Assembly (NCBI GenBank): GCA_003056165.1
Contig: LSNR01000011.1
Location: 1-40,215, forward strand
DNA length: 40,215 nt
Reading direction: 5' to 3'
From: Parcubacteria group bacterium M6-OD1-3
GTDB taxonomy: Bacteria; Patescibacteriota; Minisyncoccia; Moranbacterales; UBA9337
The notes below the pieces were generated by a model, which was not told the origin of the DNA, ran no database searches, and was given only the letters and a program-made list of their open reading frames with translations. Positions 20,076-22,449 of the stretch are shown here, piece by piece; the first letter of the stretch is position 1; every line of letters begins with the position of its first letter. The position numbers and the translations under genes were made by a program.

Positions 20076-20411
20076 TTAATTTGCTAATGAAAACATAATT
20101 ATGAAACTATTTTCTGTTTCACACTCACACTCTATCTCGATCCTAATAATAAGATCATTGCTAGTAGGTAAATAGTTTGTAATTGTAATTTTAGTTTTAG
20201 TTTTTGCATTAGTAATTTCTTTTCCACAAGCCGAACAATAACAATTGCTATCATCGAGAACGACTGATACTTTTATCGGGTCCATTTCTTTACCCGAGCA
20301 AGTGCCATAAATACATACTACCCCCTTTTTACGAACAGCGTTGATAAAACAAATCTCCGCTCTAGTAAAAACTATTGAGCCATAACTAACCTGTTTAAGA
20401 TTGCTATTCAT
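20076..20411 (-). CDS. Hypothetical Cys-rich protein, possible zinc site
   Basis: A 111-residue protein with no recognised family. Eight cysteines at 21, 33, 38, 57, 59, 62, 95 and 97; CYCSACGKEI (57-66) resembles a zinc-knuckle half site and ECEC (94-97) could complete it. The rest is beta-rich. No signal peptide. The start ATG has a strong AGGAGG Shine-Dalgarno about 9 bases upstream. It is transcribed away from thrS, and the upstream region overlaps the thrS promoter: a minus-strand TTGATT...TATTAT pair lies at about 20471-20496. Metal binding is inferred from cysteine spacing only. Confidence 0.6.
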   Translation of the reverse strand: MNSNLKQVSYGSIVFTRAEICFINAVRKKGVVCIYGTCSGKEMDPIKVSVVLDDSNCYCSACGKEITNAKTKTKITITNYLPTSNDLIIRIEIECECETENSFIIMFSLAN

Positions 20412-20445: not shown

Positions 20446-20473
20446 TTGCTATTTTCACTAATTGTAGTATAAT
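20446..20473 (+). promoter_or_regulatory. Promoter for the thrS leader
   Basis: -35 TTGCTA (20446-20451), 16-base spacer, perfect -10 TATAAT (20468-20473). Transcription would start near 20480, leaving a leader of about 195 bases before the thrS ATG. Confidence 0.75.
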
Positions 20474-20479
20474 AACAGA

Positions 20480-20646
20480 AGAGAAAAATAAATCAAGTGG
20501 TGATGCGACTTAACCAATCGCTGAGCTTGCGTTAAGAATTTAGCGAAATAAATTCAAAAAGCGCCCTGATAAGTGTTGGGAAGCTGAGTGGAACCGTCCT
20601 CTATTAGGACCTCGGCATTAAAACATTATGTTTTGGTGTTTTTTTA
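20480..20646 (+). promoter_or_regulatory. T-box-like tRNA-sensing leader of thrS
   Basis: The antiterminator has the exact T-box architecture: lower helix GCUGAG (20583-20588) with CUCGGC (20611-20616), six pairs; a 7-nt bulge UGGAACC (20589-20595) that carries the UGGN tRNA-binding sequence; upper helix GUCCU/AGGAC (20596-20600 with 20606-20610) closed by CUAUU. UGGA would pair with a tRNA ending UCCA. A terminator (20614-20645) overlaps the 3' strand of the lower helix, giving the on/off switch. The upstream part (20480-20580) is short for a canonical stem I: visible helices are CUUAAC/GUUAAG (20509-20514 with 20531-20536) and GAAUUU/AAAUUC. An ACC triplet (20513-20515) is one possible specifier, uncertain. 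Known T-boxes control aminoacyl-tRNA synthetase genes, which fits thrS. Confidence 0.75.
20614..20646 (+). terminator. Attenuator terminator in the thrS leader
   Basis: CATTAAAACA/TGTTTTGGTG (20616-20625 with 20629-20638, ten pairs, two G-U) with a TTA loop, extendable by two G-U pairs, followed by seven T (20639-20645). It overlaps the antiterminator's CUCGGC strand by three bases. Confidence 0.75.
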
Positions 20647-20676: not shown

Positions 20677-22449
20677 ATGTCAAATTCAAAAAGGGAAATT
20701 AAAAATGAAATCTTAAAACACTCCACTGCACATATCTTAGCAACAGCGGTTTTGGAAATGTTTCCAGAAACAAAATTCGGAATTGGTCCGGCAATTGAAG
20801 ATGGTTTTTATTATGACTTTGATTTACCTCGCACTTTAATTCCAGAAGATTTGGAAATTCTGGAAGAAAAAATGCGAACTATTATCAAATCAAAATTTCC
20901 CTTTGAACGACAGGAAATTTCTATTGATGAGGCGTTGGAACATTTTAAAAAACTTGGGCAAAATTATAAAGTGGAACTGTTGGAAGATTTAAAGAATAAA
21001 AATGAAACAAAAGTTTCTATTTATAAAACAGATGGTTTTGTTGATCTTTGTCGTGGACCGCATCTAGACTCAACCGATAAAGTTAATCCCCAAGCTTTTA
21101 AATTAACCAAAATTTCCGGTGCCTACTGGAAAGGCAATGAGAAAAACAAGCAATTACAAAGAATTTATGGTGTAGTTTTTAACGATAAAAAACAATTGAA
21201 ACAATATTTATTTCAACAGGAAGAAGCTAAAAAACGCGACCACCGAAAATTGGGAGAGGAATTAAACCTCTTTATGATTTCTGAAGAAGTTGGAAAAGGC
21301 TTACCGCTTTGGCTTCCCAACGGGGCTTTCGTTCGAAAAAAACTTGAAGACTATATGTACAAAATAGAAAGAAAAAATGGTTACGACTTTGTTTATACTC
21401 CAATCCTTGCTAATGAGAAACTTTATCAACAATCTGGTCATCTAGCTCATTATAATGATGATATGTACAACCCGATTGATATTGAAGGTGAAAATTATTA
21501 TCTAAAACCAATGAATTGTCCTCATCATCATATAATTTACAACCATAATTTAAAAAGTTATCGAGATTTGCCAATTAGACTTTCTGATTTCAGTCCCATT
21601 CATAGATTTGAACGCTCGGGAGTTTTGACTGGGTTAATCAGAGCTCGCTGTTTCTCACAAAATGACGCCCATATTTATTGTCGTCAGGACCAGCTAAAAA
21701 AAGAAATTGAGAATACTTTAAATTTATTCAAAGAAGTTTATAAAGATTTTAAAATAGAAAATTATTGGTTTAGATTGTCTTTACCGGACTTTAAAAACAA
21801 AGAAAAATATGGTGATATAAAAAATAAAGAGATGTGGGGAAAATCAGCCGAAATTGCTCGTAAAGTTTTAGATAAATCTGGAGAAAAATATACTGAAGAA
21901 AGTGGCGAGGCTGCTTTCTATGGACCAAAAATTGATGTTCAAATAAAAAATGTCAACGGAAAAGAAGATACTATTGCTACAATGCAAATTGATTTTTATA
22001 TGCCGGAAAGATTTGATTTAGAATTTACAAACAGCAAAGGAGAGAAGGAAAGACCAGTAATTTTTCATCGCGCTATTATGGGCTCGTTTGATAGATTTTT
22101 TGCGTTTCTTATTGAACAAACTGGTGGAGCTTTTCCACTTTGGCTATCTCCTACTCAAGTTTCTATTGTACCAGTTTCAGAAAAATTCAATGATTATGCT
22201 GAAGAAATTCGCCAACAATTATTTACTAAAGATATTCGCGTAAAGATAAATAATCGCGATGAAAGTCTTGGCAAGCGAATTCGCGAAGAAGAAAAACAGA
22301 AAGTACCTTATATTTTAGTTGTCGGTGAAAAAGAAGCTAAAGAAAAAACGGTCGCTGTCCGCGCCCGCAATGAAAAAAACAAACAAGAGATTGTTCTTCT
22401 TGATAAATTTATTGAAAATATCCTAAAGGAAATCAAAGAAAAAAGATAA
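20677..22449 (+). CDS. thrS: Threonyl-tRNA synthetase, TGS-less form
   Basis: Class II synthetase charging tRNA-Thr. The 590 residues start directly at the editing domain (HSTAHILATAVLEMFPETKFGIGPAIEDGFYYDF, then DLCRGPHLDST with the second HxxxH/CxxxH-type site). The N-terminal TGS domain of about 60 residues present in most bacterial ThrS is missing. The catalytic core holds motif 1 near PLWLPNGA/RKKLEDYM, zinc ligands in MNCPHHHII, motif 2 in RARCFSQNDAHIYC, and motif 3 in HRAIMGSFDRFFAFLIE; the anticodon-binding domain begins VSIVPVSEKFNDYA. It has its own promoter and a T-box-like leader, and a strong terminator downstream. No Shine-Dalgarno sequence precedes the ATG. Confidence 0.96.
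   Translation: MSNSKREIKNEILKHSTAHILATAVLEMFPETKFGIGPAIEDGFYYDFDLPRTLIPEDLEILEEKMRTIIKSKFPFERQEISIDEALEHFKKLGQNYKVELLEDLKNKNETKVSIYKTDGFVDLCRGPHLDSTDKVNPQAFKLTKISGAYWKGNEKNKQLQRIYGVVFNDKKQLKQYLFQQEEAKKRDHRKLGEELNLFMISEEVGKGLPLWLPNGAFVRKKLEDYMYKIERKNGYDFVYTPILANEKLYQQSGHLAHYNDDMYNPIDIEGENYYLKPMNCPHHHIIYNHNLKSYRDLPIRLSDFSPIHRFERSGVLTGLIRARCFSQNDAHIYCRQDQLKKEIENTLNLFKEVYKDFKIENYWFRLSLPDFKNKEKYGDIKNKEMWGKSAEIARKVLDKSGEKYTEESGEAAFYGPKIDVQIKNVNGKEDTIATMQIDFYMPERFDLEFTNSKGEKERPVIFHRAIMGSFDRFFAFLIEQTGGAFPLWLSPTQVSIVPVSEKFNDYAEEIRQQLFTKDIRVKINNRDESLGKRIREEEKQKVPYILVVGEKEAKEKTVAVRARNEKNKQEIVLLDKFIENILKEIKEKR

Follow-up and report, generated by a model that had tools for sequence, protein, structure and literature searches.

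The thrS leader at positions 20480-20645 of the window (the whole stretch of 40,215 nucleotides of Parcubacteria group bacterium M6-OD1-3 that was analysed) was confirmed to be of T-box type, and the fold reported for it is real. We consider it highly probable that this leader acts as a T-box riboswitch controlling the transcription of thrS, although there are no data on expression or binding. Support at the level of sequence extends to its anatomy, the covariation of its helices, the matches of specifier and discriminator, its gene context and a long-range pairing in relatives.

Anatomy and covariation of the leader

The elements of the leader and its surroundings are listed in Table 1. The initial annotation, made from the sequence alone, had described an antiterminator with a 6-bp lower helix, a UGGAACC bulge and a 5-bp upper helix, which lies exactly where it was placed. 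A promoter-like site is likewise present upstream, from which a transcription start near 20480 is inferred, as is a threonyl-tRNA synthetase downstream, whose reading frame exceeds its family cut-off and starts 31 nt past the U-run. The folding energy of the leader was 2.6 sd below that of dinucleotide shuffles. A simple terminator scan missed the hairpin at 20615-20645, because the hairpin is rich in A/U and G.U pairs and the scan demands at least three G-C pairs.

Table 1. Positions of the thrS leader elements and flanking features in the window
Feature	Position	Strand	Details
Sigma-70-type promoter-like site TTGCTA-16 nt-TATAAT	20446-20473	+	10/12 consensus matches
Ultrashort Stem I, 36 nt	20494-20529	+	covariation, 47 leaders
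Stem I base helix CAAGU/GCUUG	20494-20498/20525-20529		5 bp
Stem I 3-nt bulge	20499-20501		
Stem I tandem G.A	20502-20503 and 20523-20524		
Stem I upper helix	20505-20508/20518-20521		4 bp
Stem I apical loop CUUAACCAA, 9 nt	20509-20517	+	specifier ACC (Thr) 20513-20515, then purine
Stem II-like hairpin	20530-20563	+	CGU/GCG (weak support) + GAAUUUA/UAAAUUC, loop GCGAAA
Stem III purine string + Stem III AAAAAGCG	20556-20582	+	CCC 20564-20566 / GGG 20578-20580, then AA
T-box antiterminator / tRNA 3'-end receptor	20583-20616	+	A1, bulge, A2
Helix A1 GCUGAG/CUCGGC	20583-20588/20611-20616		6 bp
T-box bulge UGGAACC	20589-20595		7 nt
Helix A2 GUCCU/AGGAC	20596-20600/20606-20610		5 bp
Terminator 3' region	20615-20645	+	local hairpin GCAUUAAAAC/GUUUUGGUGU, then U-run 20639-20645 (U7)
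thrS, threonyl-tRNA synthetase, regulated gene	20677-22449	+	NCBIfam TIGR00418, 683 bits vs cut-off 384

A reduced element for tRNA recognition had also been anticipated, and this can now be refined: the element is an ultrashort Stem I of defined build, which bears a kink-turn signature and carries its specifier in the apical loop. Across 47 leaders, Stem I consisted of a 5-bp base helix, a 3-nt bulge, tandem G.A, one mismatch, a 4-bp helix and an apical loop of 7-9 nt, and all of its pairs (9/9) showed two-sided changes above the best of 500 shuffles. An automatic specifier finder was too noisy for gene-by-gene scoring, and an extraction anchored on the kink-turn was used instead; as the GA motifs were a condition of this extraction, how often they occur is no test. 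The tandem GA and 3-nt bulge may be taken as a kink-turn signature, the kink-turn fold itself not being shown.

The Stem II-like hairpin is kept across leaders, and its lowest helix (CGU/GCG) is without covariation support, the variation there being mostly wobble, so that this helix is only tentative. A recurrent RCGAR loop (GCGAAA, ACGAAU, GCGAAC) was seen in the hairpin (20536-20555 in the window, and relatives); a T-loop motif in the same loop failed to hold across leaders. No Stem IIA/B pseudoknot was recognised in thrS leaders, judged by eye only. The stretch AAGCG-CCC..GGG-AA of the window fits the T-box motif 5'-RRRxG-StemIII-AA-3' as defined previously (PMC7583486), and relatives carry AAAGAGYG; their AAAGAG string was initially read as a Stem II S-turn and later matched the Stem III purine string. 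The CCC/GGG helix of Stem III covaries among leaders.

An alignment of 34 leaders contained 97.2% standard pair cells, with two-sided changes in 16/17 pairs. Such changes affected 111 cells, compared with 31 in shuffles, and slid partners abolished the signal. Having been fitted to the modelled structure, the alignment is biased in its favour, but the slid and shuffled controls were far off. Both A1 and A2 covary in these leaders, and the refutation that the initial annotation had set for itself, namely an absence of such covariation in aligned leaders, did not materialise.

The A2-terminal pair (20596/20610) is G-C in the window, as against the G-U wobble described as an aminoacyl sensor. This replacement, and the fact that no IIA/B pseudoknot was recognised by eye, could point to a vestigial T-box that has lost the ability to tell charged from uncharged tRNA and terminates partially and constitutively. 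Against such decay stands the strong compensatory change seen in 34 genera of the order as well as in other families of its class, which places the leader structure under selection, and we regard a vestigial T-box as very unlikely. The A2-terminal pair is itself variable in the family (GC, UA, GU and others), the G-U wobble is not conserved, and we treat this wobble as not obligatory for T-box membership.

Distribution and tRNA specificity

Homologous leaders were found 5' of thrS in four other genomes (G002, G006, G009 and G014) by a DNA search of relatives. A covariance model built from four leaders, the window's among them, matched 63/131 genomes of the order in 34/66 genera. Its 65 matches lay before thrS (57), glyS (5) or cysS (1) or at a contig end (1), with one due to chance, and 63 of the 65 had an aminoacyl-tRNA synthetase gene downstream; the match G017:C9:11521 (E 0.002) resembles coding sequence and was put down to chance. 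A refined model matched 50 of 384 genomes of the class and 59 of 380 genomes of the phylum, and the phylum-level loci examined all stood before thrS (18/18). Relatives also occur in Portnoybacteria and other Patescibacteria. Those near relatives of the window genome that have a name are Candidatus Moranbacteria/Moraniibacteriota, in keeping with the CPR-like origin proposed for it. Within the short thrS/cysS family, the UGGAACC bulge was conserved in 54/54 leaders. In two genomes (L002:521-1099 and L064) another gene, exonuclease-like or, by eye, NYN-like, sits between T-box and thrS and would therefore be co-regulated. On the upstream side of the thrS leader, both in the window (20076-20411, minus strand) and in G006 (L002:1758-2066, plus strand), lies a divergent gene for a small paired-cysteine protein of ~100 aa.

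The Rfam T-box model RF00230, which the initial annotation had put forward as a check, was of no help with this leader: a scan of the window region as permissive as E=10 left it unscored and returned chance matches only, none of them RF00230. Across the order, RF00230 was matched in 98/124 genomes at E<=0.001, and its gathering score was passed by none (0 genomes, ileS elements included), which is why routine annotation shows no T-boxes in the order. The gathering score is a detection threshold and not a structural feature. One RF00230 match in the window genome (G000:C17:48204, 17 bits) was rejected, as it falls within an ORF. A second T-box of that genome precedes ileS (L006:1501-1687, equivalent to G000:C19:106459-106645), with an apical AUC, the bulge UGGU and a local terminator of the canonical kind (CCUUAAAC/GUUUAAGG); it reached 51 bits in Rfam, where the cut-off is 93.

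Specificity for threonine was examined in the apical loops and the tRNA genes. The loops of thrS leaders contained ACC, or ACU in four leaders, followed by a purine; these are synonymous Thr codons read by the same GGU anticodon. The initial annotation had predicted from the bulge UGGA a tRNA-Thr with U at the discriminator, and U is present in all three tRNA-Thr genes of the window genome (TGT, GGT and CGT), so that its other condition for refutation failed as well. The covarying helices, the ACC specifier and this discriminator match together bear out its assignment of a T-box specific for Thr. One genome (G048) carries two near-identical elements in tandem (L076:507-626 and 2560-2675), with UGC before cysS and ACU before thrS, which on sequence grounds would represent a natural specifier swap following the downstream gene. 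Its discriminators are U for Thr, Cys and Gly (UGGA bulge) and A for Ile (UGGU bulge). Many ileS elements of the order had AUC in their apical loops according to the noisy automatic specifier finder. T-boxes of single-subunit glycyl-tRNA synthetases (L087, L096, L100, L103, L109, L282, L283 and L287) had UGGA bulges and, by eye, GGC, GGU or GGA loops. Those of aspS (L220, L224, L289, L292 and L303) showed, by eye, AAC (Asn) in some apical loops and GAC (Asp) in one; the AAC loops before aspS hint that in some genomes tRNA-Asn, too, may be a substrate of AspRS.

In other bacteria, thrS is autoregulated by protein binding to its leader. With that precedent and no Rfam T-box score, the window leader might be imagined as a thrS attenuator that depends on a protein or on translation and is a T-box in appearance only. 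We hold this to be extremely unlikely, given that the bulge is invariant in the short family, that the specifier tracks the downstream gene and the bulge tracks the tRNA discriminator, and that the kink-turn signature and RRRxG-StemIII-AA are known T-box features.

Terminator and proposed mechanism of the T-box

The competing terminator of the initial annotation stands only in part. A hairpin followed by U7 does exist, but in the window it has only GC/GGC (2-3 nt) in common with A1, and the terminator conserved in most relatives is a long-range helix, which involves the Stem III region and is no competitor of the antiterminator. The sequence before the U-run in relatives is complementary to the purine string, the Stem III 5' strand and the Stem III loop, and in most of them the terminator 5' arm seems to consist of the purine string and Stem III rather than the antiterminator 3' strand. 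This arm lies 5' of the T-box bulge, which allows the antiterminator and the terminator to exist side by side. Most of the family thus departs from the canonical rule (PMC7583486), in which the 5' arm of the terminator is made of the 3' strands of A1/A2. The phylum-level thrS elements examined had local terminators in most cases.

Covariation and energy calculations were used to assess the long-range helix. Its pair at offset -3 showed 22 two-sided changes in 54 leaders, compared with at most 15 in shuffles. Cognate arms averaged -13.7 kcal/mol and swapped arms -8.7, the best value among 5000 permutations being -10.1. Since kinship inflates such arm-pairing tests, ileS elements were taken as controls: within the short thrS/cysS family, 44/54 leaders favoured the long-range helix over the local one by >5 kcal/mol, compared with 2/31 controls. 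Long-range terminator and antiterminator were held together in the minimum-energy fold of 38/46 leaders, eight leaders of another terminator type having been excluded by hand.

For the window itself, the terminator in use can only be inferred. The 3' arm GGUGU (20635-20639) can also pair with GCGCC (20561-20565). Unconstrained folding favoured the local hairpin (probability 0.83 versus 0.17), and the corresponding minimum-energy fold retained the local hairpin with the antiterminator disrupted; when folding was constrained to the long-range helix, the antiterminator was kept. The choice is thus ambiguous, with the local hairpin favoured as far as the folding model goes. The same minimum-energy fold paired Stem I with A1 (AGCUU/AAGCU), and this was not adopted as an anti-antiterminator because the pairing is lost in families with GAAUUCGAG.

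The folding preference of the window and the canonical terminator of the ileS element in the same genome would agree with a canonical switch alone, in which the hairpin at 20615-20645 competes with A1, while the long-range pairing seen in relatives would be a by-product of A/U-rich sequence. We find this possible but doubtful in view of the short overlap with A1, the covariation of the long-range arms, the many minimum-energy folds that hold both structures and the three relatives (G002, G006 and G009) whose local hairpins are weak (0 to -5.2 kcal/mol) and long-range ones strong (-13.6 to -21.3). We lean instead, with some confidence, towards uncharged tRNA working by locking Stem III, as opposed to protecting the antiterminator from a hairpin that competes with it. 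In most relatives the gate would be Stem III and not A1, as the 5' arm of the OFF hairpin comes from the purine string and Stem III.

The steps of this mechanism are inferred from the anatomy and from published T-box structures, and tRNA binding and charging-dependent read-through are likewise inferences. The ultrashort Stem I of the nascent leader would present the ACC of its apical loop to the GGU anticodon of tRNA-Thr. If the tRNA is uncharged, its U-CCA end could pair with UGGA of the T-box bulge, and Stem III and the purine string would clamp the tRNA/bulge duplex, blocking the terminator so that polymerase reads through and ThrS is made. With charged tRNA, the discriminator would stay unstabilised, the hairpin and U7 would form, and transcription would end.

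Comparison with known T-boxes

T-boxes have been described mainly from Firmicutes and Actinobacteria. An older survey reported them in five phyla, none of them CPR, and had no CPR genomes in its set (PMC2494555), and TBDB looked for the translational class only in Actinobacteria and among truncated class I matches (PMC7778990). We found no paper on T-boxes in CPR, Patescibacteria or Parcubacteria in the open-licence literature. The presence of T-boxes below the Rfam cut-off in most genomes of a CPR order would extend direct tRNA sensing to very reduced genomes.

An apical-loop specifier is already known from T-boxes with a short Stem I, which are mainly translational, and transcriptional T-boxes are reported to need, in general, a long Stem I (PMC7583486). 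The closest likeness is to the ultrashort-Stem-I T-boxes (translational, Actinobacteria ileS; TBDB class II), which share the apical specifier and a very short kink-turned Stem I without the distal motif that binds the tRNA elbow (PMC7583486, PMC10651847). Unlike these, the window family has a terminator and U-run instead of a translational platform, with U-rich terminators in relatives, as well as specificity for Thr (also Cys, Gly and Ile), a CPR host and no IIA/B pseudoknot recognised in the thrS elements. With the canonical transcriptional T-box (RF00230, Firmicutes aminoacyl-tRNA synthetase leaders) it has in common the specifier codon, kink-turn signature, Stem III purine string, 7-nt UGGNACC bulge, terminator and synthetase gene, but it lacks the long elbow-binding Stem I, falls below Rfam detection and, in most relatives, takes its terminator 5' arm from the Stem III region and not from the A1/A2 3' strands. 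The reduced middle region recalls glyQS-type T-boxes, in which a strong G/C-rich specifier reportedly makes Stem II dispensable (PMC7583486), and accepted glycine T-boxes do without the Stem IIA/B pseudoknot; the window differs from the glyQS type in its 36-nt Stem I, where transcriptional T-boxes generally have a long one, and in retaining a Stem II-like hairpin.

What appears to be new, judging from comparative evidence with the biochemistry untested, is a T-box that is both transcriptional and ultrashort and whose switch strand, in most members, has moved. Its ultrashort Stem I is combined with a transcription terminator, although transcriptional T-boxes were generally believed to require a long Stem I for fast tRNA capture. 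The natural ACU/UGC sister elements offer ready specificity swaps, and the relocated terminator makes it directly testable whether A1 competition is essential for T-box switching.
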